DNA of 32,457 bases from Alphaproteobacteria bacterium (lineage in GTDB: Bacteria; Pseudomonadota; Alphaproteobacteria; Rhizobiales; Beijerinckiaceae). Made by a program: the position numbers and the translations under genes. Shown here in pieces: positions 17,284 through 32,457 of the stretch (position 1 is the stretch's first letter; every line of letters begins with the position of its first letter). A model generated the notes under the pieces. The model did not search any database. It saw only the letters and a list, made by a program, of their open reading frames with translations, and had not been told where the DNA came from. The stretch is from positions 1-32,457 of the forward strand of contig VGCJ01000018.1 in assembly GCA_016870035.1 (NCBI GenBank). The letters are read 5' to 3'.

Positions 17284-18054
17284 ATGTCTACATTAGATTT
17301 ATTTGATCTTAAAGGGCGTCGTGCACTGATTACAGGGTCGAGCCAAGGTATTGGATTAGGCCTTGCCGAAGGATTAGCGAATGTCGGTGTAGAGGTTATC
17401 CTCAATGGACGCAATTTTGAAAAGCTTAATAATGAAGTATCTCGTTTAAAAACTAAAGGGTATGACGTACATGGTGTGGCCTTTGACGTCACCAATAATC
17501 TAGATGTTATGAGGGCTATCGAGAAAATAAAGAGTGAAATTGGTATAATAGATATTCTTATAAATAATGCTGGCATGCAGTTTCGTTCGTCACTAGAGGA
17601 TTATCCAGATGAAAAATTTGAAGAAATTCTAGATGTTAACATTAAAGGTGTTTTTCTAGTCAGTAAACTCGTAGCGGGTCAAATGATAAAACGCGGTGAA
17701 GGTAAAATAATCAACATTAGTTCAATAACGAGTGAGATGAGCCGTCCGACGGTCGCGCCTTATGCTGCTACCAAAGGTGCTTTAAAAATGCTGACAAAGG
17801 GTATGTGTGCTGATTGGGCAAAGTATGGACTACAAATTAACGCAATTAGTCCTGGTTTTTTTAAAACACCTATGAACCAGGCGCTCATATCTAATCCCGA
17901 ATTTTTCTCTTGGGTTGAAAAGCGAACACCGTCTGGTCGTTGGGGTAATATTGATGAATTAGTTGGCGCTGCGATTTTCTTAGCAAGTAAGGCTTCATCC
18001 TTCGTCAATGGACATACACTATATGTTGATGGTGGCATAACCTCAGTCTTATGA
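17284..18054 (+). CDS. SDR-family sugar (acid) dehydrogenase
   Basis: This 256-residue classical short-chain dehydrogenase has the cofactor motif ITGSSQGIGLGLAEGL, the NNAG motif (ILINNAGMQF), the catalytic Ser-Tyr-Lys set (ISSITSEM and YAATKGA), and the C-terminal FVNGHTLYVDGG. It most resembles gluconate 5-dehydrogenase and KduD-type enzymes. In the rhamnose island it could be L-rhamnose 1-dehydrogenase or the 2-keto-3-deoxy-L-rhamnonate 4-dehydrogenase of the non-phosphorylating pathway; the sequence does not decide. GGGAGG lies 6 bases before the ATG. The gene is much richer in A+T than the core genes, suggesting recent acquisition. It converges on rhaM. Confidence 0.85.
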   Translation: MSTLDLFDLKGRRALITGSSQGIGLGLAEGLANVGVEVILNGRNFEKLNNEVSRLKTKGYDVHGVAFDVTNNLDVMRAIEKIKSEIGIIDILINNAGMQFRSSLEDYPDEKFEEILDVNIKGVFLVSKLVAGQMIKRGEGKIINISSITSEMSRPTVAPYAATKGALKMLTKGMCADWAKYGLQINAISPGFFKTPMNQALISNPEFFSWVEKRTPSGRWGNIDELVGAAIFLASKASSFVNGHTLYVDGGITSVL

Positions 18055-18139: not shown

Positions 18140-18457
18140 TTAAGGAAGATAGAAAACTCGTTTCAATGGGATTTGAACCGGTACATTATCGGCATCAGTT
18201 GCCATGATGTCGCGCATGAAGGCCCACCATCTCTTAGTGATTTCTAGCTCTGCGACTTTATCTAGCGTATTATCATCCGATAAAGTGAGAATGCCAAATA
18301 AATGATAGCTTTCTGCATCAAGCCAGATGGCATAATCCGAAACGCCTGCATCTTTCAGCGCCTTCTTTAATTCAGGATAAACTTCATCATGACGCTTTTT
18401 ATATTCGGCTGCTTTGCCAGAAAATAAATTCATACGAAACGCAATTTGTTTAGGCAT
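18140..18457 (-). CDS. rhaM: L-rhamnose mutarotase
   Basis: RhaM interconverts the alpha and beta anomers of L-rhamnose. The 105-residue product follows the E. coli enzyme along its length: RMNLFSGKAAEYKKRHDEVY with the family His at position 23, then YAIWLDAESYHLFGIL, RWWAFMRDIM and the ending PLKRVFYLP. The length is normal and all landmark Tyr, Trp and His residues are present. AAGGAG lies 9 bases before the ATG at 18457. It stands alone on the minus strand, convergent with the dehydrogenase gene. A second, divergent member of the same family is encoded at 26050. Confidence 0.92.
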   Translation of the reverse strand: MPKQIAFRMNLFSGKAAEYKKRHDEVYPELKKALKDAGVSDYAIWLDAESYHLFGILTLSDDNTLDKVAELEITKRWWAFMRDIMATDADNVPVQIPLKRVFYLP

Positions 18458-19287: not shown

Positions 19288-20169
19288 TTATAATTCAATT
19301 TTATAGAAACGAATTGCATTTTCGCGATAGATCAAACGCGTTTCCTGTTCATTGAGACTCAGTTTTACGAAGGCTTCATCCAATACATCCACCCATTCTT
19401 CCATGGTCGTCGATTGTAAAAGGATTGGATAATCGCCCGCGTAGATCACACGCTCGGGTCCGAAAATATCAATTGTAGCAGCGATATAGGGAAATAGTTG
19501 CTCGCGACTCCATTTTGGTCCGGCATAGGGTGGGAGATCAGAAAGCTTTACCCAGATATTTTTGTAGCGTGCCAGATCACGAAGATCGTCACGAAACTGA
19601 GATAATGCGTTTTGCGCAATGCCGGGCTTACCGCAATGATCAAGTATAAGAGGAACTTGTGACGAGATCTGCGGTACAAATTTTCGAATGATATCCATTT
19701 GCGTATAGTTGGGATTAATATCGAAAGAATAATTGAAGTTCTCAAGACAATTTACACCCTCGATAAATTTAGCGCTTAAGGTCAGCGTTCGCGGGTCTTT
19801 ATCAAATTCCATGATGCGGCGAATGCCATGAACTGAAGGATGATGATCCTTCAATTTTTGTAAAATCACTTCAACCTTTTTACCCCATTCAACAGGCGCC
19901 ATTGGGATGATGGTTTTAATACGTGGATCACGTTTGGCTTCCTCCTCGACAAATTGGACCTCTTCAATATATTGGCCGCCGCCTTCCCAAAAATCAGCAT
20001 AACATTCGAGAAATACCATGGCTTCAATTTTTAGTTTGCCGCAGTCGCGCTGGTAATCTTCAATATGATAGGGATGACCAAAGATTGGATGCCCGTCAAA
20101 AGCTGAATATTTTAACCGCTTCTGATCCCAGATGTGAAGATGCGTATCAATGATTGGAAAATTTGGCAT
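19288..20169 (-). CDS. COG3618 amidohydrolase, probable sugar-acid lactonase
   Basis: This 293-residue TIM-barrel protein belongs to the amidohydrolase-2 group that includes L-rhamnono-gamma-lactonase and L-fucono-1,5-lactonase. It starts with IIDTHLHIWD (metal His10 and His12), has the LILDHCGKPG loop, and ends with VIYAGDYPI carrying the conserved Asp. In most relatives the last motif is GSDWP, so GDYP is a small variation. In the cytoplasm it would open the lactone formed by sugar 1-dehydrogenase, giving rhamnonate or a similar acid. Neighbouring rhamnose transport and mutarotase genes support this, but the exact lactone is inferred. It lies downstream of rhaQ on the same strand, separated by a 727-base decayed stretch. 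Confidence 0.82.
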   Translation of the reverse strand: MPNFPIIDTHLHIWDQKRLKYSAFDGHPIFGHPYHIEDYQRDCGKLKIEAMVFLECYADFWEGGGQYIEEVQFVEEEAKRDPRIKTIIPMAPVEWGKKVEVILQKLKDHHPSVHGIRRIMEFDKDPRTLTLSAKFIEGVNCLENFNYSFDINPNYTQMDIIRKFVPQISSQVPLILDHCGKPGIAQNALSQFRDDLRDLARYKNIWVKLSDLPPYAGPKWSREQLFPYIAATIDIFGPERVIYAGDYPILLQSTTMEEWVDVLDEAFVKLSLNEQETRLIYRENAIRFYKIEL

Positions 20170-20896: not shown

Positions 20897-21844
20897 TTAC
20901 GTGGACACTGAACGTAGCCTTTCCAACATATTAGGAATGAGCACCGACGCGATCAGAAGAATACCAATTACGGCTGTCTGGATGTGGCCCGTAATGTTCA
21001 TGAGTGCCATCCCATTCCGTAAATTCAGCACGATTAGTATAGATAGAACTACACCCAGCATCGAGCCCTTGCCGCCGAATATAGAAACACCACCCAAAAG
21101 AACCATTGTAATGATGTCGAGCTCAAATCCAAAAGCTGCATCGCCCCGCACGGATGCGAGCCGCGCAGCATAGAAGAGGCCCGCCATAGCTGAAATGCCA
21201 CCGGATAGAATAAACAGAATTGATTTCACTCGTGCCACGCGGAGTCCGGAATAATGTGCCACTTCCGCACTATTGCCAATTGTGAAGACTTCTCGGCCGA
21301 AACCCGTACGATGCAGGACAATACTGAGAGTGGCGACGAGAAGGGCAAAGGCAAAAAATGAGAGCGGTAACGAGCCGATGAGGCCATCGCGACCCAAGGC
21401 TATAAACCAGTCTGGGAAGCCGGTGATGCCACGGTCTTCCAATAGCACGCGCGCAAAACCACGATATCCGATCAGTGAGGCGAGCGTGACAACGAGCGAA
21501 GGAATACCAATAATGGTGATCCAGAACGCATTTATGGCCCCCAGCATTATTCCAAGCCCGAGACACAACAGAATTGCTAGCGAAGCGGGCATTCCGACGT
21601 CGATAATCGTACCAAATGTACACGCCGAAAGACCCATGATGGAAGCGACAGATAGGTCAATTTCACCATTAATTATGATTAAAGTCATGATCGTCGCGAT
21701 AATAATTTTTTCGATCGACAGTTGGAAGAGGTTCACTTGGTTTTGTAACGTTAAAAATTCTGGCGCGAGTGATATATTTACAGCAGTCGTAATGCCCAGA
21801 ATAAGAATAAGCAAAGATTCCCATGAACGCAGGAATTTACTCAT
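20897..21844 (-). CDS. rhaQ: rhamnose ABC transporter permease RhaQ
   Basis: This 315-residue inner-membrane permease of the BPD_transp_2 (ribose/xylose/rhamnose) family has about nine to ten hydrophobic segments, for example AINAFWITIIGIPSLVVTLA, and the signature LGGVSIFGGKGSMLGVVLSI near the C-terminus, where the ATP-binding protein docks. It pairs with RhaP to form the sugar channel. Its ATG at 21844 overlaps the rhaP stop in an ATGA junction, so translation is coupled. The order S-T-P-Q equals that in rhizobial rhamnose operons (family knowledge). Confidence 0.88.
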   Translation of the reverse strand: MSKFLRSWESLLILILGITTAVNISLAPEFLTLQNQVNLFQLSIEKIIIATIMTLIIINGEIDLSVASIMGLSACTFGTIIDVGMPASLAILLCLGLGIMLGAINAFWITIIGIPSLVVTLASLIGYRGFARVLLEDRGITGFPDWFIALGRDGLIGSLPLSFFAFALLVATLSIVLHRTGFGREVFTIGNSAEVAHYSGLRVARVKSILFILSGGISAMAGLFYAARLASVRGDAAFGFELDIITMVLLGGVSIFGGKGSMLGVVLSILIVLNLRNGMALMNITGHIQTAVIGILLIASVLIPNMLERLRSVST

Positions 21845-22842
21845 GCGACGAGCTTCCGAAGCTGGACGTAGGAGCGTGCCATGAATGTGTCCACCGCGAC
21901 AGCCGTCATGATGAGGATACCTAGTAGTGCTTCCCGCCAGAATTCGCTGACTATGGCCCAGCGTATCAGGCTGTTGTCAATCGTATCTACAAGTAAGGTA
22001 CCAAGCACGACGCCAAGGATCGTTCCTGATCCACCAAAAATATTTACGCCACCAACGACGACTGCGGCGATCGATTTTAGTTCAAAGCCAAGTCCCGCGA
22101 CCACCGTGATGTTTCCGAAACGGGCGAGGAAGATAAGGCCTGCCAACCCAGCCAGCATCCCGCTCAGAACAAAGGCCGTGAAAACAACACGCTCCGAATT
22201 AATGCCAGCCATGATAGCGGCATCTGGATTTGAACCGACCGCGTAAAACTTGCGCGCTGCACGAAGTTTCCACAAGGCAAGACTGAAGATTAGTGCCGCT
22301 ACCAGAGCAACAATTACCATGACGCGGACTTCGAGCACACCGACACTGAAGAGTGTCGTTTGTGGTAATTCGACGACCCATTTTGGAAGACTATCGGTGG
22401 TGATAGTTCGCGCTTCGGAATATTCGACCAAGAAAGTACGGAAAAGCGCTAGCGTACCAAGTGTTACAATTATTGATGGCACTCGGCCATATGCCACAAG
22501 CACACCGTTGAACGCTCCACATAGGGCACCGATACTTAGAGCAATAAAAAGGGTGAGAAATGGTCCGAACGGCGCGTAGGCCAGTATGTCGCCGGTAACA
22601 TAGGCGGTGATCCCGACGAGCGAACCTACCGAGAGATCGATATTGCGCGTCATCACGACAATCGCTTGACCAATGGCAATAGGTAGGATGACAGCGGCGC
22701 TGGAGGCGATGCGATTAAGTGTACGAGGCGAGAAATAATTGTCAATCTGCGAAACAAAGAAGACAATCACGAGCAGTAAAACGACAGCGAGTGTTATAAC
22801 GCGAAGCGTTTGTGGGTGGAAATTTCGTAGCAACACATTCAT
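21841..22842 (-). CDS. rhaP: rhamnose ABC transporter permease RhaP
   Basis: This 333-residue polytopic permease of the ribose/rhamnose family starts with a hydrophobic segment ([19 protein letters not shown]), includes [19 protein letters not shown], a family hallmark, and has the [20 protein letters not shown] docking signature. It should form a heterodimer with RhaQ. The ATG at 22842 overlaps the rhaT TGA by four bases (ATGA), and its own stop overlaps the rhaQ start in the same way, so three genes are tightly coupled. No defects are seen. Confidence 0.88.
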
Positions 22843-24383
22843 TGGGACATTGCTGCCGTTTGACCGGTGGCAAGCGCCATGATGTTTTCCTGTGTGGCTT
22901 CACTAATATCAAAGATGCCCATCTGTCGGCCTTCGCGCATTACGAGAACGCGGTCCGCAAGCATTAAGACTTCGGGCAAGTCGGACGAAATTACAATGAT
23001 TGCTACGCCCCGAATAGCAAGTTCACGGATAATATTGTGTACTTCGGTTTTTGCGCCAATATCAATGCCGCGGGTAGGTTCGTCAAAGATCAGGATGCGA
23101 GGCTCCGTTTCCAGCCACTTTGCTAACATTACTTTCTGTTGGTTGCCTCCGGAAAGCTTGCCGACATCAATGGTCACGTTGGGTGTGCGAATGCTTAGGC
23201 GTTCTCGATGGCTTTCGGCCATCGCGATTTCAGCTTTGCGATCAATGAGTCCAAATAATCGTAGTAGCTTCTTCAAGCTTGGCAGTGAGATATTCGCAAA
23301 GATCGGCATATTCAGAGCAAGGCCGAACTTTCTTCGGTCTTCTGATACGTAAGCAATAAGATACTTTAACGCTGACTGCGGAGAGTCGATAGTGACTGGT
23401 TGACGAGCCACCTCGATATAGCCTGATGTTGCTGGTTCAACCCCAAAGAGGGCAAGGCCTACATCCGTGCGCCGAGATCCAATCAATCCGGCAAAACATA
23501 AAACCTCACCAATGTGCAAATCAAAGCTTACATCGCTAAACACACCATCACGCGTTAGGTTGCGGACGGAAAGAATCTTTTCGCCATGAGCATTTGCAGC
23601 AACCTTCATAGAGAAATGATTAATCGAGCGGCCCACCATGTCGCGCACCATGCCCTGCTGTGTCACCTGAGAGATCGGTTTCGTTGAAATGTGCTTGCCA
23701 TCGCGCATAACAGTGACCGTATCGGCGATACGGAAAATTTCCTCAAGCCTGTGACTAATGTAGATAACGGCAACACCTCGCATTTTCAGCGCCTCAACAA
23801 TTTGCACAAGCCTATCGACCTCATGAGCTGACAGCGATGCGGTTGGCTCGTCCATGATAAGGGCGCGAACATTGAGCGATAATGCTCGGGCAATTTCAAC
23901 GGTTTGTTGTTCTGCGAGCGTCAGGCCGTTAGCGAGCCGCCGAGGATCGAGGGTGATCCCAAGGCGCGCAATGATTTCATTGGCGTGCTGGTATTGTGTG
24001 GCCCAATTCATCACAAGACCGAGATTATGATGGCTAATAAAAATGTTTTCCGCCACGTCAAGATCAGGAAACACCATCGGTTCCTGAAAAATCGCCGCTA
24101 TACCATGCTTCTGGGCGTCCTCAGTGGAGCGGATCTGCATTTGCTTGCCGTCCACGAGCATTTCGCCCTCGTCAGGTTGGTGGACACCAGTTAGGATCTT
24201 GATTAGCGTTGATTTACCCGCGCCATTCTCTCCAACAATTGCGTGCACTTGCCCCGGCAAAATGGCAATCGAAACATCTGCCATTGCCGCCGTCATCCCA
24301 AATGATTTCGAGATGTGACGTAATTCGAGGATAGGATGAGAGACGATTGTGGATCTCTCCCCCGCTAACGGGGGAGAGATCAT
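22839..24383 (-). CDS. rhaT: rhamnose ABC transporter ATP-binding protein RhaT
   Basis: This duplicated ATPase (514 residues from the ATG at 24383) powers the importer. The first half has Walker [10 protein letters not shown], a signature loop reading [15 protein letters not shown], and Walker [12 protein letters not shown]. The second half has a degenerate Walker A ([11 protein letters not shown]) but a good signature [15 protein letters not shown] and Walker [15 protein letters not shown], as usual for the AraG/RbsA/RhaT group. The start is uncertain: the ATG at 24383 has no ribosome site and sits in a 13-pair hairpin, while homology suggests the protein begins near [15 protein letters not shown], where the codon is GTC rather than GTG or ATG. 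Confidence 0.9.
24352..24381 (-). promoter_or_regulatory. 13-pair hairpin between rhaS and rhaT
   Basis: GATCTCTCCCCCG (24352-24364) pairs perfectly with CGGGGGAGAGATC (24369-24381) across a 4-base loop. It lies 10 bases after the rhaS stop on the minus strand. No T run follows, so it is more likely a stem that protects rhaS mRNA and lowers rhaT translation, giving the usual excess of binding protein over transporter. It overlaps the rhaT start region. Confidence 0.65.
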
Positions 24384-24390
24384 GGGAGAA

Positions 24391-25419
24391 CTACTTTGCC
24401 GCCGCTTCGACATTTTTCTTATTGTAGACTGTGAATGGTCCCATGAGGATTCGTTTTGTATTTTTACGGCCCGGATCTGCCTCGATCTTAAACTTACCCA
24501 TCCTGCCGGCATTGACTTCATCGCCGATGTTACCCTTAATCGCAGAAGTCGCCAAAGCGTAACTTGTGTAGTAAGTAAGATAACCTAAGTCAACGAAGCT
24601 CCACAAAGCGAATTCCGGTGCACAACCATTCATAGTGTAACTCACCATCTCGGCAGGAACGCCAAGGCCTGAGACTTTGATTTTATCGCACAATTTTTCG
24701 TCTTGTAAGGCTTTCGAGGCCGCGACTATGCCGACAGAGGTTGGCGCCATGATAAGCTTCATATTTTTATGCTTATCGACGAGCGCCAGCGCAGCGTTGT
24801 AAGATTTCTCCGCCTGATCATCGCCGTAGACGGTATCGACTAATTTCAAGTTTTTGTACTTGTCTCCCTTAAGCGTTTCCTTCATGGCCGCAATCCAAGC
24901 ATTTTGATTGGCAGCGTCGGGTGTTGCGGATAAAATAGCAAAGTCTCCAGAACCTCCCATGATGCTATGTGCCATATCAGCCATAACGACACCAATAGAA
25001 CCGAAGTCGACTTGCGCGACAAATACTGTCTCGCCTTTGCCGGAGGGAATTGGCGAATCCCACGTCACTACTTTGGTGCCGGCTGCTTGGGCGGCTTCTG
25101 CGGCCGCAGCAATCTGATCACCGGCGTTGTTGGAAAGCATAACAACGTTTTTCTTCTGCGTCGTGGCCGTTGTCAGCATTTCAATCTGGCCAGCGACCGA
25201 ATTTTCAGGAGTTGGACCAATATAATCTAGTGAACCCTTGTTTTGAAGCTCCTTATGTGCCTCTTCAGCGCCGCGGCGCGCTTGATCGAAAGGCAAGATA
25301 CCCAAAAACTTAGGCAATAACACGAGGTTGGCCGTGCCGCCCTTCTGCACATCGGCTGTAACGGAAACACTAGAAATTAAAACAGCAGCAAACGCTACTA
25401 TAGCTCGTATTTTTAACAT
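24391..25419 (-). CDS. rhaS: rhamnose ABC transporter substrate-binding protein RhaS
   Basis: This 342-residue periplasmic binding protein of the ribose/rhamnose type begins [20 protein letters not shown], a clear signal peptide with cleavage near VTA-DVQ. The mature part has [55 protein letters not shown] and [15 protein letters not shown], a pattern close to annotated RhaS proteins. The start at 25419 is preferred over a longer frame because GGGGAGG lies 7 bases upstream and it gives a clean signal peptide. It is first in the rhaSTPQ operon. Its promoter must lie in 25,420-25,540. Confidence 0.9.
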
Positions 25420-25540
25420 TAAATCCTCCCCATTTTGTTTATATTCGGATAAGCTTAGTCTATAAAAGAACATACTTCAATCATAAAAAACTATAATATT
25501 TTCCGCCTTATTTCTAAGACTTCGCGGTCAAGGATATAAT

Positions 25541-25861: not shown

Positions 25862-26049
25862 AAATATAAAAACCTGCTAACCTAATTAGTTAAGACCTTA
25901 CAATAAAATAGCTGTCACTTTTTCGGTTGATGGAAGCGTTCACGAACGATCTAATACGGTAAATTAGATTATCACAGACGTTGTCTATCAGATGACCATG
26001 ATTCTCGATGAAAAGCGTTGACTTCATAGCCATGACCAGAGAGGAATCA

Positions 26050-26385
26050 ATGAAAAGCAAGATCCGTAAGGCTTTTGTTCTAAAGCTTAAACCTGACGCG
26101 CTTGATGAGTATGTTTATTGGCATGAGAATATGTGGCCTGAATTACAAGCTGAACTTTTCAATCAGGGTATTGCCGAAATTACGCTTTACGAGATTGATG
26201 ATAAGGTTTTTCTGTTTTCTTATGTTGAGGATGAAGCCGCTTGGAACCGACTTTGGGATACAGAAGTTCACCATCGTTGGGCCAGAGAGCGCATGGTGCC
26301 TTTGATGCATTATCGGCAGGATGGCGTCGTCGATGCGCGAGAAATGCGGGAAATTTGGCATTTCGTGCCCAAAGCCAAGACCTGA
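26050..26385 (+). CDS. second L-rhamnose mutarotase-family protein
   Basis: This 111-residue protein belongs to the RhaM (DUF718) dimeric alpha/beta-barrel family. It begins MKSKIRKAFVLKLKPDALDE and keeps WHENMWPELQ (family His and Trp), a LYEIDDKVFLFSYVE strand pair, HHRWARERMVPLM, and an ending WHFVPK where RhaM has VFYLP. It is clearly diverged from the 18140-18457 copy and may act on another 6-deoxyhexose or rhamnose derivative. GAGAGGA lies 6 bases before the ATG at 26050; an upstream in-frame ATG at 26008 is less likely. The GMC oxidoreductase gene follows after 4 bases. Confidence 0.82.
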   Translation: MKSKIRKAFVLKLKPDALDEYVYWHENMWPELQAELFNQGIAEITLYEIDDKVFLFSYVEDEAAWNRLWDTEVHHRWARERMVPLMHYRQDGVVDAREMREIWHFVPKAKT

Positions 26386-26389
26386 ACCA

Positions 26390-27850
26390 ATGACGAAAGC
26401 AGATATTATCATCGTCGGTGCGGGTTCAGCAGGCTGCGCATTAGCCAACCGGCTGTCGAGCGATCCCTCTTGCAAGGTAGTGCTCCTCGAAGCTGGCGGT
26501 ACGGACGACCGCGACGCTATTCGTTCTCCCCGAGAGTACTTCTCCTTGTGGGATACGGACGCTGATTGGCAATATGTTTCCACGCCACAACGTGGCACAG
26601 CAAATCGTTCTCATAAAATGCCGCGTGGTAAGGTGCTTGGGGGTACCAGCAGCCTGAATGGCATGGTTTATCTGCGCGGTGCCCAATCGGACTATGATGG
26701 CTGGGCCGCTCAAGGCTGCGACGGCTGGGACTGGGAGAGCCTGCTACCGGAATTTGCCGGGCTCGAAACTTGGCTCAAACCCGCTGTTCTTGATCCGCTA
26801 AATGAATTGTCTCGGGCATTGGTTGAAGCGGCGATCGAGGCCGGTTTCAGGCGGAGCAGTACCTTCGATGCAGGAGTACTCGATGGTGCGGGTTGGAATA
26901 AGTCATGTATTATTGGGGGCGAGCGCTATAACAATCACCGTGCCTTCATCGTTCCGATCCGTAATCGCAAAAACTTAACGATCTGTTCTCATTCAACCGT
27001 TGCGAAACTGTTGATGGAAGCGAAAAAAGTGACAGGCGTCGTTTTAAGTGGTGGAGAGGAGATTAAAGCGGGCGAAGTCATTCTTTGCACGGGTGCGTTC
27101 GACTCACCCCGCCTGCTAATGATTTCTGGTATCGGTCCCGCCGCCGATTTGGCGGCGCTTGGCATCTCGCCGCAAATTGATCTTCCAGTGGGTGAAAACC
27201 TTACCGATCACTTACTGATCGGTATTGTTTATAATTCACAGCGGGCGATCTCGGATCTTAACGCATTATGCACTGAGAGCTGCGCGTTCGCGCGCTCGAC
27301 GCCGACGCGTTCAGATTGCGATATCGAAATCTCCTTTGCTACTAAGCCGCACTTCGCGCCTGAGGCTCATGACGACGTGCAGCGCTTCACTATTATTCCG
27401 GGCATAACCAAGCCGAAGAGCCGCGGCACTGTCCGTCTTACTTCAGCCACTCCTGGCGCAAGGTTGGCGATAGACCCCAATTACTTTGATCATTCAGACG
27501 ACATGAAGGCCATGATCGCGGCTGTGCGGCTGAGCCGCAGCATTGGCCAGCAAAAAGCTCTGGCCGAGTGGACGACGGGCGAATGGTGGCCCGGAGCCAG
27601 CGTCGAAACAGATGAAAAAATCGCCTCATATGTGCGCGAGGGTGTCAGTACTTGGTTTCATCCTGCTGGCACTTGCCGGATGGGTCTGGGTCCTGACAGT
27701 GTAGTTGATGCCAATTTGCGTGTTTATGGCGTTGAGTCTTTGCGTATTGCTGACGCCTCAATAATGCCCGAAATTGTCGGGGTTAATACCCACGGAGCCA
27801 GCACTATGATTGGCTGGAAAGCAGGGGGGCTCATCTTGGGTGGACGATAG
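26390..27850 (+). CDS. GMC-family FAD-dependent oxidoreductase
   Basis: GMC enzymes oxidise alcohols, including choline, glucose and other sugars, with FAD. The 486-residue protein has the N-terminal dinucleotide motif IIIVGAGSAGCALANRL with LLEAGG, the GMC signature MPRGKVLGGTSSLNGMVYLR, the second signature CTGAFDSPRLLMISGIG, the active-site His in TWFHPAGTCRMG, and VNTHGASTMIGWKAG at the end. The second catalytic position (usually Asn or His) is His here. It lacks a signal peptide. It forms an operon with rhaM2, so its substrate is probably the same sugar or its derivative; an oxidase or dehydrogenase acting on rhamnose or rhamnoside is an inference. Confidence 0.87.
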   Translation: MTKADIIIVGAGSAGCALANRLSSDPSCKVVLLEAGGTDDRDAIRSPREYFSLWDTDADWQYVSTPQRGTANRSHKMPRGKVLGGTSSLNGMVYLRGAQSDYDGWAAQGCDGWDWESLLPEFAGLETWLKPAVLDPLNELSRALVEAAIEAGFRRSSTFDAGVLDGAGWNKSCIIGGERYNNHRAFIVPIRNRKNLTICSHSTVAKLLMEAKKVTGVVLSGGEEIKAGEVILCTGAFDSPRLLMISGIGPAADLAALGISPQIDLPVGENLTDHLLIGIVYNSQRAISDLNALCTESCAFARSTPTRSDCDIEISFATKPHFAPEAHDDVQRFTIIPGITKPKSRGTVRLTSATPGARLAIDPNYFDHSDDMKAMIAAVRLSRSIGQQKALAEWTTGEWWPGASVETDEKIASYVREGVSTWFHPAGTCRMGLGPDSVVDANLRVYGVESLRIADASIMPEIVGVNTHGASTMIGWKAGGLILGGR

Positions 27851-28037: not shown

Positions 28038-28088
28038 ATGATAACCGACTATCCCTCCGAATTGATGAAGAGAGAAGCGGGAGAATGA
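28038..28088 (+). CDS. possible 16-residue leader peptide before the DUF4037 gene
   Basis: An ATG at 28038 follows AAAAGGA at 8 bases and opens a 16-codon frame ending MKREAGE. Its TGA overlaps the DUF4037 ATG (ATGA). The DUF4037 start has no well-placed ribosome site of its own (GGGAG is 3 bases away), so this small frame may deliver ribosomes by coupling. It may also be the tail of a dead gene. Confidence 0.3.
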   Translation: MITDYPSELMKREAGE

Positions 28089-29134
28089 GGAGATCAATTA
28101 TCGACGATAGTCGCGCCTTTTGGGCTGAAGTTGTGCGTCCCCTTCTCCAATCGCACTTCCCCGAAGACATGCAGCAGATGGCCGTTGGCTTTTTTGGCTA
28201 CGGTTCTGAAGTGTTGCGGCTCGATGACAAATATTCGACGGACCACCATTTCGGCCTAAGGGTAAACATCCTGCTACCCGAGGCATTAAAAAACGCGCGG
28301 GGTCCAGCAATCGAAGAAGGCCTCAAGGTGTACCTGCCCCAACAATGGCGTGGGCGCGAGTTGCGTGAAAGCTATACAAGTACGAAAGGTGTAGAATTCG
28401 CGAGCCTCGAACAACACTTGCGCTCCACCATTGGACTCGACCGCCCACCGGAAAGCTTTATCGAATGGCTGAAGATACCTGAGGAAGATATCACTCACAT
28501 CGTCGCCGGCGAAGTCTGGTACGATCCGTCTGGTCGCTTCACTTCAATCCGTGAAACGCTTTCCGCATATTATCCCGAACCTGTCCGCCTTCGCCGCCTC
28601 GCGCATTGGTGTCGCTACTTCTCGGGAATGGGAGTCTACGCCCTAAATCGCGCGTTGCTGCGCAACAATCTTCTTTACGCTTCCACTACCTTCGCGCGGT
28701 CCCTCCGCTGGGGTGTGCAAATTGCCTTCCTATTGGACCGGCGATACTACCCATATGACAAATGGATGACCGACATTTTCCACAGTTTGCCCCGGATGGG
28801 GCAGCGTCTAACCCATATCGTCAACGAAGCCCCTCGCCTTGAAATACCTTGGGCGCGCAAGCTTGACCTGCTGCACGAGATGTCGGACATCCTTGACGCT
28901 GCAATGGTAGAAGACGGCTTAATCACCCACCACCCGCAATACCGCGTGTCGGAAACCTCAGGTTACCGCCTGCTCGAATATGCATACGCTGAACTAATCC
29001 GCCGATGCCCGACCGAGATCCAGGGCATCGTTCCCGAATGGGAACAGGTGCACTGGGAGGGTTTCCATTCCAAATTCGTAGCCGGTGTAAACCTGACAGA
29101 TTGGCGTCGTATGCTTGTTCTGGAGGAACGCTGA
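28085..29134 (+). CDS. DUF4037-domain putative nucleotidyltransferase
   Basis: This 349-residue cytoplasmic protein matches DUF4037, a family of unknown function with a nucleotidyltransferase-like N-terminus. The motif is GYGSEVLRLDDKYSTDHHFG (residues 38-57), with the Gly-Ser pair and acidic residues where Pol-beta-type transferases bind metal and nucleotide. A helical C-terminal half follows, rich in Trp, Tyr and Arg (LRRLAHWCRYFSGMGVYALN, RSLRWGVQIAFLLDRRYYPY, YPYDKWMTD). No signal peptide is present. It is first in a coupled operon with the URO-D-like and GH78 genes (TGATG junction with the next gene). A role in modifying or activating a sugar or an antibiotic-like rhamnoside is possible, but I do not assign one. 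Base composition is closer to the core than that of the rhaSTPQ block. Confidence 0.8.
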   Translation: MRRSIIDDSRAFWAEVVRPLLQSHFPEDMQQMAVGFFGYGSEVLRLDDKYSTDHHFGLRVNILLPEALKNARGPAIEEGLKVYLPQQWRGRELRESYTSTKGVEFASLEQHLRSTIGLDRPPESFIEWLKIPEEDITHIVAGEVWYDPSGRFTSIRETLSAYYPEPVRLRRLAHWCRYFSGMGVYALNRALLRNNLLYASTTFARSLRWGVQIAFLLDRRYYPYDKWMTDIFHSLPRMGQRLTHIVNEAPRLEIPWARKLDLLHEMSDILDAAMVEDGLITHHPQYRVSETSGYRLLEYAYAELIRRCPTEIQGIVPEWEQVHWEGFHSKFVAGVNLTDWRRMLVLEER

Positions 29135-30120
29135 TGAACTCTCTCGAACGCGTAATGGCTACAATCAAACGCGATCCCGTCGACCGAACGCCAATCGACT
29201 GCTGGCTCTACCAAAAGCAATTCCTCGAACGGTTAGAGGCCGACTACGGCCCGCGCGAAAAGTTCATCGAAGAATTCGGCGTCGATGTCTTCGTCGGCTT
29301 GATGCCATTCCCTAACCAGCACGGGCGCAGGGTCCACATCCACGAACTGGCAAGCGTCACCTTAGAGGACCCGCGCGATCCAAAATGGCTGAACCACACA
29401 GATTGGAACTACGATTTTGGTGGCGTGAACATCGCTACCGCCATTCAAGAGCAGAAAGGCAAGCGCTGCGTGCTAGCCCACTGCTGGGGTATGGTAGAAG
29501 GCACTTCCTCTTTTCTTGGGATCGAGAATTGCTGGATGAATCTCGGCGGCAAACCTGATCTGATGGCGAATTTTTTCGACCGCTATGCCGACTGGCTTTG
29601 TTTGCAGGTCGACCAGATGGTCGAGGCGGGCGTTGACATGATTACGCTCTCCGACGACTGGGGATCAAACGGCACGATGCTGTTTTCCCCAAAACTCTGG
29701 CGTAAGATTATTAAGCCCTACGCCATGCGCGTGGTGCAGCATGCTCGTTCAAGGGGACTGCCAGTAAATTTGCACTCTGATGGTTATATTTTGCAGATCG
29801 TAGATGACATTATCGAGATGGGCTTCACCTCATGGCACCCGGTGCAGGAAAGTGCTGGTATGGATCCGAGAGATGTAAAGGCGAAATATGGCGATAAAAT
29901 CGTGATCTATGGTTCTCTTGACGTGGTGGATGGCCTACTAAAATACGATGGCGATATGCTTGACGAGTACATAACAGAACGCTTCGGCATCTACGCCCCA
30001 GGGGGTGGGTTCATTTTTAACAGTGGGCATTTCATCCAGCCCGACATCCCCCCTGCCCGCCTCATCCGAGCTTATCAGGTAGTTAACAAACTCGCTCGTA
30101 ATTATGGCACTCTTCAATAG
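29134..30120 (+). CDS. URO-D superfamily protein lacking the metal cysteine
   Basis: This 328-residue TIM-barrel protein is in the uroporphyrinogen decarboxylase superfamily, which holds HemE and corrinoid methyltransferases such as MtaA and CmuA. It starts NSLERVMATIKRDPVDRTPI, has ITLSDDWGSNGTMLFSPKLW, and then LPVNLHSDGYILQIVDDI. Methyltransferase-like relatives usually have His-x-Cys-Gly there; here it is His-Ser-Asp, and no later Cys fits, so zinc thiol activation is unlikely. HemE function is also unlikely, because the arginine-rich HemE N-terminal motif is absent. The ATG at 29134 shares a base with the upstream TGA and follows GGAGGA. Its operon with GH78 suggests a sugar-related reaction, unassigned. 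Confidence 0.8.
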   Translation: MNSLERVMATIKRDPVDRTPIDCWLYQKQFLERLEADYGPREKFIEEFGVDVFVGLMPFPNQHGRRVHIHELASVTLEDPRDPKWLNHTDWNYDFGGVNIATAIQEQKGKRCVLAHCWGMVEGTSSFLGIENCWMNLGGKPDLMANFFDRYADWLCLQVDQMVEAGVDMITLSDDWGSNGTMLFSPKLWRKIIKPYAMRVVQHARSRGLPVNLHSDGYILQIVDDIIEMGFTSWHPVQESAGMDPRDVKAKYGDKIVIYGSLDVVDGLLKYDGDMLDEYITERFGIYAPGGGFIFNSGHFIQPDIPPARLIRAYQVVNKLARNYGTLQ

Positions 30121-32131
30121 GGTCGGCGCAGTGAAGGCACCTATTGGCACCTACTGGATAGGTTCGGACCATCCCTTCGACCTCCACGAGGCGTATCTCG
30201 TCTTCACCGCCGACCTGACACTGCCGACTGTGCCGCTCGAAGCCAACCTTCACCTCAGCGCCGACAGCCGCTACCGTCTTTTTATCAACGGTAACTACGT
30301 CGGCCGAGGCCCCGAACGCTCATGGCCTACTGCTATGGCCGTTGACAGTCTCCCCATTTCGCTGCGCCAAGGCCAGAATCGCATCTGGGTGGAAGTCTAC
30401 TGCCCCGGTTATTCCAACTTCGCTCATGTCCACCGCGCCGCCTGCGGGCTAATCGCGTGGCTGGACGTGAACGGTGAAACCCTCCTAACCACCAACCGTG
30501 AAAACTGGCGCGTGCGCCGCGATTTGTCGTGGTCCGAAAGCGTACCTCGGGTCTCAATCTACGGTACCGGAGTTGAAGACCGCGACCTCACCCGCGCACT
30601 CCTGTTTAGCGATGATACCGCAAAATGGGCGGAAGCCCGTATTGTCCAACCGCCCGAAGGCCCAATCTGGCTCACCCTCCGCCCGCGCACCACACCTCTC
30701 TTGATCGAGGAACTGCAGCCCTTAGCAATACCGTGGCGAACCCATCACGGCCCAACCATCCCACAAGAAGACCCGCACGAGTCGATCCGCCACGCCCTGA
30801 CCCTTCCGCAAACCGAAATCCCCGCCTTCCTCGCAAAAGACCACACCGCCCTCTGGATTTTCGACTTGACCGAAAGTCGTGTCACAACCGCCGCCGCCAC
30901 GCTCATTGCAAATGAAGGCGATATCCTCACCGTTAGCTATGCTGAAAAACTCCGCGATGGCGACCCGCTGATCTCAGACCCTGCAAACTATTGCCGGATG
31001 CGCCTTACCGACCGCTTCCGCCTCATCCATGGGCGAAACAACATTGAAGGATTTACCCCGCGAGGCGCTCGGTACATCCTTTTCCAACTCGACTCAACTC
31101 AAGACATCAACATCGCGATCTCCTTTCACGCCCGCCTTCCTCGCTACCCCCTTAACGCACCAGAACAAACGGACCCTGTCGCAGCCATTTGCCAACGCAC
31201 CACTATCGCCTGCCTGCAAGACGGCTTCGTCGACTCGGTCTGGCGTGAAAGCTCGCAATGGCTGGGCGATGCGGTAGCCCAATCCTTTGCCCTTCTAGCG
31301 ATTACTGAAGACCCCCGCCCCCTTCGCCTAACGCTAGAGCAGGCGGCCGTTGGCGCAGCCGAGGACGGCATCCTCCCCTCGGTCCTGCCGGGAGAGATCC
31401 CTTCTTATGTAGTCATCGACTACAACTTTTCATGGGTAGAGCTACTGAATTTCTGGCATCAGCACCCGAAGACTGACCCAACACTTATCTCAGCGCTGTG
31501 GCCCACGCTAACCCGGCTGTTCAACCGCGTCCACGCCGACACTAACTCCGATGGCCTTATCCGCAGCCAGCCGGGCCGCCGCGTCTTTCTCGACTGGTCC
31601 GGAATGGACCGGGGGGAACCAAACCTTACATATAACCTGCGCTACTTGTTCGCGCTGCAGACAGCGAACTCCCTCGGTGGCGCCACTGGTAATCCGGTAC
31701 CCCCCGAATGGGCCCAACGCATCGAAACGCTTCGCCAAGCCCTTCATTCTACCCACTTCATAGCCGGAAACTGGCACGAAAGCCAAAACGGCTTTCCAGC
31801 ATGCCAACTTGCCCTTGCCCTCCTTATCCTCACTGGCCTCGCTGACGACCTTAACGTCCTCGCCGACACTCTGGTTGAGCGCTCCCTTGATCTCGACGAC
31901 GGCCCCAAGTCCCCGGCTCTTGCAAGTCCTTTCATGCACCATTATCTGTTTTTGGCTCTACAAAACCTCGACCGTTCTCGAGACATCCGCGCCATCATTA
32001 AGGCGCGCTGGGGCCGCTGGGCCACCGAGGGTCGCACAACGACGCCAGAAAACTGGAACATCGAATTTCCCGACGGCTCTGCCTGCCACGGCTTCTCTGC
32101 CCACCCGCTACGCTGGCTTCAGATTACCTAA
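30104..32131 (+). CDS. GH78-like alpha-L-rhamnosidase, cytoplasmic
   Basis: GH78 enzymes release terminal L-rhamnose from glycosides. The 675-residue protein has N-terminal beta-sandwich domains (YRLFINGNYVGRGPERSW and GQNRIWVEVYCPG are typical), then an (alpha/alpha)6 barrel from about residue 360. The barrel begins with DGFVDSVWRESSQWLGDA, where Glu382 aligns with the general acid of the family motif, and includes VFLDWSGMDRG. Near the end, TTPENWNIEF (Glu649), then GSACHGFSAHPLRWL resemble the TTxWExW...SxxH region that holds the base. There is no signal peptide, so it acts inside the cell on imported rhamnosides. It overlaps the URO-D gene by 17 bases; a GTG at 30131 is an alternative start. 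GH78 proteins are often longer, so this is a compact form. Confidence 0.82.
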   Translation: MALFNRVGAVKAPIGTYWIGSDHPFDLHEAYLVFTADLTLPTVPLEANLHLSADSRYRLFINGNYVGRGPERSWPTAMAVDSLPISLRQGQNRIWVEVYCPGYSNFAHVHRAACGLIAWLDVNGETLLTTNRENWRVRRDLSWSESVPRVSIYGTGVEDRDLTRALLFSDDTAKWAEARIVQPPEGPIWLTLRPRTTPLLIEELQPLAIPWRTHHGPTIPQEDPHESIRHALTLPQTEIPAFLAKDHTALWIFDLTESRVTTAAATLIANEGDILTVSYAEKLRDGDPLISDPANYCRMRLTDRFRLIHGRNNIEGFTPRGARYILFQLDSTQDINIAISFHARLPRYPLNAPEQTDPVAAICQRTTIACLQDGFVDSVWRESSQWLGDAVAQSFALLAITEDPRPLRLTLEQAAVGAAEDGILPSVLPGEIPSYVVIDYNFSWVELLNFWHQHPKTDPTLISALWPTLTRLFNRVHADTNSDGLIRSQPGRRVFLDWSGMDRGEPNLTYNLRYLFALQTANSLGGATGNPVPPEWAQRIETLRQALHSTHFIAGNWHESQNGFPACQLALALLILTGLADDLNVLADTLVERSLDLDDGPKSPALASPFMHHYLFLALQNLDRSRDIRAIIKARWGRWATEGRTTTPENWNIEFPDGSACHGFSAHPLRWLQIT

Positions 32132-32186: not shown

Positions 32187-32457
32187 TGAGGTGCCCCTAG
32201 CAAAGTGGTCCGGATTTGATGTTAGTTTTTTGGCGGATTTTCCATCGAGGAACAGGGGAGATCGGCTATGAAGAAGAAGCGGTTTTCGACCGAACAGTTT
32301 GTTGCGGTTTTGAAGCAGGCGGAGATGGGGATGGCCGTGGCCGACCTGATCCGGCAAATCGGGATCTCGGAACAGACCTTCCATCGCTGGAAGAAGCAGT
32401 ATGGCGATCTCCAGTCTGAATAAGTCTGAGAGCTGAAGCAGCTCACCGAGGAGAATG
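32187..32457 (+). mobile_element. IS3-family element, left end, cut by the window edge
   Basis: The left terminus seems to begin TGAGGTGCCCCTAGCAAAGT, similar in layout to IS3-family ends that open with TG and a run of C. The orfA frame follows after about 80 bases. The rest, including orfB and the right end, lies beyond the window. Confidence 0.65.
32268..32457 (+). pseudogene. IS3-family transposase OrfA with two stop codons
   Basis: The frame starts MKKKRFSTEQFVAVLKQAEM with an HTH (VADLIRQIGISEQTFHRWKK). Relatives continue YGxLQSDQVRELKQLxEEN. Here the text is YGDLQSE, TAA, V, TGA, ELKQLTEEN, so two codons, expected Gln (CAA) and Arg (CGA), have become TAA and TGA by single C-to-T changes. 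AGGGGAG lies 7 bases before the ATG. The 51-residue product would be inactive. Confidence 0.75.

Follow-up and report, generated by a model that had tools for sequence, protein, structure and literature searches.

The window analysed here, a stretch of 32,457 nt from an Alphaproteobacteria bacterium (Rhizobiales; Beijerinckiaceae; assembly GCA_016870035.1, contig VGCJ01000018.1, positions 1-32,457), carries a trio of genes with end-to-end overlaps, encoding a DUF4037 protein, a protein of the uroporphyrinogen decarboxylase (URO-D) fold and a GH78 alpha-L-rhamnosidase. Genes for this URO-D protein and for a distinct clade of DUF4037 proteins stand together in the rhamnose operons of two groups, Pseudomonadota of the Rhodobacterales type and Chloroflexota, and GH78 is usually with them. 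We are confident that the trio serves L-rhamnose or rhamnoside use as an accessory module functionally linked to rhamnose use, and the occurrence of the pair in two unrelated bacterial groups suggests that rhamnose use includes a step not yet described. Our preferred reading, to which we give a probability of about 0.5, is that the DUF4037 and URO-D proteins (the pair) tailor a rhamnoside by a chemistry that we leave unsettled. The trio is as follows.

28085..29134, + strand: DUF4037 protein, 349 aa, of the rhamnose-operon clade, with an ANT/LinB-like nucleotidyltransferase fold (PF13228; fold model; clade support 100/100)
29134..30120, + strand: URO-D-fold protein, 328 aa, with a predicted His214/Asp216/His299 site (PF01208; fold model; triad conservation)
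30104..32131, + strand: GH78-type alpha-L-rhamnosidase, 675 aa, with no evident signal peptide (PF17389; phmmer to 2OKX)

The three genes named in the initial annotation of this DNA are all present, with Pfam scores above the cut-offs for DUF4037 (PF13228, 96.4 bits, cut-off 22.1), URO-D (PF01208, 78.9 bits, cut-off 23.9) and Bac_rhamnosid6H (PF17389, 46.3 bits, cut-off 24.5). Two of the three overlaps that it described join trio members: the DUF4037 stop and the URO-D start have one base in common, in TGATG at 29132-29136, and the URO-D and GH78 genes overlap by 17 bases (30104-30120). The third, an ATGA, belongs to an out-of-frame open reading frame (ORF) of 16 codons that starts with the ATG at 28038 and touches the DUF4037 start; that start is at 28085, where the N-terminus aligns with those of orthologues.

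Recurrence of the pair was examined in several genome sets, in which L numbers denote loci and G numbers genomes. One genome each for 84,980 species was scanned with the DUF4037 protein alone, by exact 8-residue stretches, so that distant orthologues are missed. This yielded 15 loci, 14 of them orthologous: eleven match at 72-84% along almost the full gene, one is partial at 76%, and two, from Chloroflexota, are at 54-56%. The titles of the 11 plus one Pseudomonadota orthologues are mostly Rhodobacteraceae, Rhodobacter or similar. In all 14 (L012-L025) a URO-D gene lies directly downstream of DUF4037 on the same strand. Among 249 genomes of the Chloroflexota class of G475, 39 have some DUF4037 match and 12 have the 51-56% type, which URO-D adjoins in eight and not in four. 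With the URO-D protein as query, an equal-size sample of the same class gave 10 genomes at 1e-60, eight of them shared with the DUF4037 pair set; co-occurrence in the 249 genomes (both, 8; this DUF4037 type only, 4; this URO-D only, 2; neither, 235) gives a Fisher p of 6.6e-11, which is indicative only, the genomes being related. In the family of G467, 295 genomes gave three matches, two of them new (L121 and L122) and both ordered RhaEW, RhaI, DUF4037, URO-D, GH78. In all, the pair stands in 25 non-redundant loci, 15 from Pseudomonadota and 10 from Chloroflexota (the window, L012-L025, eight Chloroflexota loci and L121-L122).

Ordinary-type DUF4037 genes served as controls, 22 loci comprising 16 from the Chloroflexota search, five plasmid-collection records and one from Lachnospiraceae; this URO-D gene was found beside none of them in the available flank, several of the contigs being short. 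In a tree that leaves out the partial sequences (L025, L078 and the second, partial L077 copy), the operon-type DUF4037 proteins, together with a sub-branch of four rows, stand apart from all 22 controls with support of 100/100, although long branches were flagged. At the DUF4037/URO-D junction 14 of the 25 loci, one of them from Chloroflexota, have a 4-base ATGA overlap. Nonsynonymous (dN) and synonymous (dS) divergence between the window and L012 indicates purifying selection on both genes (DUF4037, dN 0.089 and dS 1.04; URO-D, dN 0.068 and dS 1.29). The initial annotation had staked its idea of a single pathway on a genome search for a conserved neighbourhood; that search has now been run, and the pair recurs across two phyla as a unit tied to rhamnose transport and catabolism.

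GH78 follows the pair in 18 of the 22 loci whose contig continues, L015, L020 and L023 being excluded because their contigs end inside URO-D. Rhamnose-gene matches occur within the fetched flanks in 24 of the 25 loci, the sole match being weak in two (L069, RhaM at 30%; L078, a partial RhaI at 33%). Those Pseudomonadota loci that are long enough carry in order, on one strand, a DeoR regulator, RhaS, RhaT and RhaP, and on the other RhaEW, RhaI, DUF4037, URO-D and GH78; exceptions are L017, with no RhaI match, and L025, where RhaI and RhaEW are found past GH78 and on the opposite strand. RhaEW and RhaI of L121 score over their NCBIfam cut-offs, a RhaA match is found in L071 and L072, and L067 has a rhamnulokinase-type gene (484 bits of a 528 cut-off). 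The main text of a study of rhamnose regulons (Rodionova 2013, PMC3870299) describes many with glycoside hydrolases. Its RhaEW/RhaI operons resemble the loci described here in having the same sorts of gene for transport, for a mutarotase, for an isomerase and for RhaEW, but that main text has no mention of uroporphyrinogen, URO-D or nucleotidyltransferase. A role for the DUF4037 protein as a rhamnulokinase substitute was rejected, since an FGGY kinase gene adjoins the rhamnose transporter in G467 (best NCBIfam match L-fuculokinase, 60.5 of 470.9 bits) and L067 has its rhamnulokinase-type gene.

Two variants of the arrangement were seen. Two genomes (L106, L107) lack a DUF4037 gene of the operon clade but have this URO-D type, which is accompanied there by ABC sugar-transport and LacI-like ORFs, by AXE1 or another alpha/beta hydrolase, and by GH2 and GH94; this may be a second sugar system using this URO-D type. 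Some Chloroflexota clusters have a second URO-D paralogue, with His-Thr-Asp, beside the pair (L024, 8000-9166; also L069, L071 and L078).

The genome of the window (2.38 Mb, 177 contigs, 98% complete) keeps the trio, two RhaM genes and the transporter, but a search for RhaEW at 1e-50 was negative and RhaI gave nothing closer than a 26% match, whereas the trio of its relatives sits with RhaEW and RhaI. Since the trio is kept without RhaEW or a close RhaI, the pair rather probably acts before the point where the rhamnose routes part and, judging from these gene sets, on a rhamnoside or on rhamnose, not on phosphorylated intermediates. Rhamnonate dehydratase was rejected in the same genome, where enolase-type genes score at most 80.1 of 393 bits, so that a non-phosphorylated route is only a guess from the SDR and amidohydrolase genes listed below.

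Alternatively, the pair might act on the aglycone or a substituent (an ester, a carboxyl or another sugar), or after GH78, and never on the rhamnose ring. We consider this unlikely, though it fares best among the alternatives: the hydrolases beside the lone URO-D genes of L106 and L107, a GDSL esterase in L069 and the several kinds of sugar transporter that adjoin URO-D kin all speak for it, but the pair also stands without GH78 beside other rhamnose genes in four loci, strongly so in three (L067, L068 and L071), which fits a substrate at the level of rhamnose better.

The URO-D protein is the most conserved member of the trio in Pseudomonadota loci, with 81-89% identity to 10 Pseudomonadota relatives; identity to the protein of L024 is 63%. 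Its model, built from 12 sequences only, has a mean predicted local distance difference test score (pLDDT) of 68.4 and a predicted template modelling score (pTM) of 0.74. The best fold matches are human URO-D (3gw0; Z 19.9, root-mean-square deviation (rmsd) 3.0, 270 aligned), MtaA (Z 17.8) and MetE (Z about 14), and score and fold together place the protein in the URO-D superfamily. At the position of the His-x-Cys motif it has His214-Ser-Asp216, as the initial annotation had stated, and the triad of His214, Asp216 and His299 is invariant across the 24 sequences compared, which include those of the window and of the two URO-D proteins without a DUF4037 partner but not L169. In two His-Ile-Cys paralogues, both of the same Chloroflexota genome, the last triad position is Cys, which suggests that the two motif sites change together, His-x-Cys...Cys against His-x-Asp...His.

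By the marks tested, the protein is neither HemE nor a methyltransferase of the MtaA type. It shares with HemE the TIM-barrel fold and a C-terminal FN-x-GH motif, but scores only 39.8 of 302.95 bits against the NCBIfam HemE equivalog, has HSD at 214-216 where HemE has FTK, and has Leu25 and Gln29 aligned with the arginine pair of the HemE RQAGR motif, which we take to bind substrate (the stretch is ungapped and low-scoring; a second alignment agrees). A heme role was rejected, since the protein falls short of the HemE score and lacks the arginine pair, and since G467 and G1202 have separate high-scoring URO-D genes (398.6 and 391.9 bits) that are presumably HemE. With MtaA and CmuA the protein has in common the fold and the location of the His-x-Cys zinc motif, its His-Ser-Asp aligning with the His-Ile-Cys of MtaA, but the motif itself differs and the family score is 39.3 of 235.4 bits.

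Like these kin, which handle methyl groups, the URO-D protein could be a demethylase that removes a methyl group from O-methylated rhamnose. The MtaA and MetE fold matches agree with this, as does a best NCBIfam match to a methyltransferase model, yet we hold it improbable: Asp and His occur in all 24 sequences where the two His-Ile-Cys kin have Cys, scores fall far under the methyltransferase cut-offs (52.4 of 244 for another such model), and no corrinoid-protein gene is found among the annotated neighbours, which are only part of all neighbours.

The model of the DUF4037 protein (pLDDT 83.6) matches best the ANT(4') kanamycin nucleotidyltransferase 6p01_A (Z 11.5, rmsd 6.1, 238 aligned) and then LinB (Z 10.0, rmsd 6.7, 234 aligned), rows outside nucleotidyltransferases reaching Z 6.3 or less. 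The VIA-align lists for the models hold no other family at comparable Z, which is no proof of absence. A nucleotidyltransferase fold followed by a helical C-terminal domain, as in the ANT family, is present, with a moderate match, and DUF4037 has been listed together with Aminoglycoside_NT_C (in a listing within PMC3710099). Differences from ANT(4') and LinB lie in the location of the gene in a catabolic operon, in the low sequence identity and in the active-site motif. ANT enzymes carry a GS...D-x-D/E metal motif, with a carboxylate two residues after the motif Asp. In the GS...SxDH motif of the DUF4037 protein GS and Asp53 are kept, while the +2 position, which we read from the motif and not from a residue alignment to ANT, is His55 in the URO-D-linked clade and varies in other DUF4037 proteins. 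We had considered loss of the catalytic Asp as peculiar to the rhamnose clade and dropped the idea, since the position that follows DH is variable among the DUF4037 proteins compared.

The lack of a carboxylate at this position would suit a pair of enzyme-derived sensors or chaperones without catalysis, for example sensing a nucleotide or ligand and so tuning rhamnose use. This is highly improbable in our view, for the URO-D protein is the most conserved member, its pocket motif is invariant and the clusters of the relatives hold a DeoR regulator gene for ordinary control.

In the GH78 protein, Asp377, Glu382, Asp389 and Glu649 align with residues 567, 572, 579 and 841 of 2OKX (phmmer 3.3e-30; residue numbers counted from the alignment), which we take to be RhaB of Bacillus sp. 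GL1 and whose Asp567, Glu572, Asp579 and Glu841 are presumably catalytic. All four positions are thus kept, but the window protein has 675 residues against 956 and no evident signal peptide, as read directly from its N-terminus with no predictor. The GH78 consensus was made without L025 and L021.

Under the tailoring reading, a rhamnose-containing saccharide would be imported via the RhaS-type ABC system. The DUF4037 protein would bind it and probably nucleotidylate a hydroxyl, its fold being that of enzymes that add a nucleotide to sugar hydroxyls. The URO-D protein, with a metal site apparently re-tooled to His-x-Asp...His from the His-x-Cys...Cys zinc site of its kin, would then cleave a bond or remove a group. 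GH78 would free L-rhamnose, which RhaM would pass to the isomerase, kinase and RhaEW route, or to another route in the genome of the window. As a named two-step chemistry, nucleotidyl tailoring followed by a metal-dependent step is quite doubtful; its most specific form, in which the ANT-like enzyme makes a rhamnoside hydroxyl a leaving group by nucleotidylation and the His-x-Asp...His metal enzyme then eliminates or displaces that group, GH78 releasing the sugar afterwards, is more doubtful again.

Several findings weigh against the tailoring reading. An assembly gap may hide RhaEW or RhaI in the genome of the window. GH78 is missing beside the pair in four of the 22 loci (L067, L068, L069 and L071) and two of the 10 genomes with this URO-D have no DUF4037 of this type; of the initial annotation's scheme, in which a modified rhamnoside is imported, tailored and then cleaved, the tie to rhamnose transport and catabolism is borne out, but not the placing of tailoring before the GH78 cut. 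L073 has no rhamnose marker, only a LacI regulator and a solute-binding protein. Of the 12 genomes of Chloroflexota that carry this DUF4037 type, four show neither URO-D nor rhamnose genes beside it (L074-L077); their DUF4037 proteins form one sub-branch (support 100/100) with DHQ for DHH, whose position relative to the other Chloroflexota rows has little resolution (80/80), so that loss of the partner there and its gain elsewhere are indistinguishable. On the protein side, the fold agrees only moderately with ANT enzymes (rmsd 6.1, identity about 10%), and the His at Asp+2 in the URO-D-linked clade leaves nucleotidyl transfer unproven. The URO-D model is only fair, with residues 297-299 below 50 pLDDT, so the metal site is predicted from sequence and not from geometry, and two His-Ser-Asp kin (L010 and L166) have Asn at the third triad position. 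The four loci L074-L077 come from G611, G545, G691 and G513; their neighbours are unlike the operon, and G513 has a partial second copy.

Within the phylum of the window one of 398 genomes matched, its own. Among 80 relatives, DUF4037 matches occur only in that genome and in G052, where the match (L003/L004) is at 33%, lies in two pieces or reading frames and falls outside the operon clade; by eye, it adjoins a recombinase-like ORF. The DUF4037 gene was not found in any of 11 congeners, the nearest relatives are in Rhodobacter/Tabrizicola-type genomes (82-84%), and the G+C content of the trio genes is 52-59% against 60-69% in L012; transfer of the trio into the genus of the window is likely. 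Such rarity would suit a chance assembly of a heme enzyme, a resistance-type nucleotidyltransferase and a rhamnosidase, but the probability of this is negligible, the 25 loci over two phyla against none of 22 controls having already refuted chance, and the presumed HemE genes of G467 and G1202 and the missing HemE arginines telling against it as well. No match at 1e-60 was found in 398 Bacillota genomes, a search without a positive control and so uninformative, and the viral contigs searched gave no confirmed match.

The His-Ser-Asp motif is not confined to this operon. In 15 stretches of the Chloroflexota genome G578 we found 20 URO-D relatives, 16 with His-x-Asp-Gly and four with His-x-Cys-Gly, the queries being two His-x-Asp proteins and so favouring their like; L163 gave no URO-D match at the cut-off used. 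A sugar-type ABC transporter gene is matched in nine of the 15 stretches. The 20 are part of 30 URO-D family matches in G578, and one other Chloroflexota genome has 61. Proteins of the URO-D fold that have His-x-Asp where the zinc thiolate motif would stand thus seem to form a large group without explanation, often encoded close to sugar transporters. The literature searched (subscription papers and preprints lay outside its scope, and one query covered 15 of 7,333 papers) gave no described function for them, no paper on DUF4037 with uroporphyrinogen decarboxylase, and none on uroporphyrinogen decarboxylase with rhamnosidase and operon; four papers in it mention DUF4037. Here such a protein is locked to a sugar of well-known catabolism, has a fixed partner and occurs in Rhodobacter sp. 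Har01 (L016), presumably an isolate, so that the role of this branch becomes a matter for a growth test and an enzyme assay; the value of the pair is this clear route to testing, the functional link being very likely. If the tailoring reading is true, a missing step is added to rhamnoside use; if the two-step chemistry is, the route is new to sugar catabolism, and the His-x-Asp group might use the same type of chemistry with partners of other kinds.

The neighbouring genes of the window include rhamnose utilisation features, of which one RhaM scores over its cut-off and the RhaS-like protein under its own but with an E-value of 1.4e-82.

17284..18054, + strand: SDR dehydrogenase, a possible sugar dehydrogenase (PRK07523-type SDR, 406.3 bits of 413)
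18140..18457, - strand: RhaM, L-rhamnose mutarotase (TIGR02625, 113.4 bits over 99.6; 48% to the L123 copy)
19288..20169, - strand: amidohydrolase resembling L-fucono-lactonase, a possible sugar lactonase (PF04909; NF052480, 73.9 bits of 400)
20897..24521, - strand: sugar ABC ATPase and two permeases, RhaT/P/Q-like (PF00005; PF02653 twice)
24391..25473, - strand: RhaS-like rhamnose ABC substrate-binding protein (TIGR02637, 277.4 bits of a 342.25 cut-off, E 1.4e-82)
26008..26385, + strand: RhaM-like L-rhamnose mutarotase, diverged (PF05336, 56.3 bits, cut-off 23.4; TIGR02625, 58.2 of 99.6, under the equivalog cut-off)
26321..27850, + strand: GMC oxidoreductase, overlapping the diverged RhaM and directly upstream of the trio (PF00732/PF05199)

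The RhaS-like protein is 67-79% identical to the RhaS-like genes of those Pseudomonadota loci long enough to include them. RhaT and RhaP have the same order in relatives, and RhaQ was seen in L123, where it adjoins the RhaM copy that the second RhaM of the window (18140-18457) resembles. With the GMC oxidoreductase as query there was no match in the loci of the relatives. The SDR gene has a G+C content of 39% against 51% for the window and is possibly of foreign origin. Shortly downstream of GH78, a transposase OrfA fragment (HTH_Tnp_1) at 32268-32423 ends in a stop.

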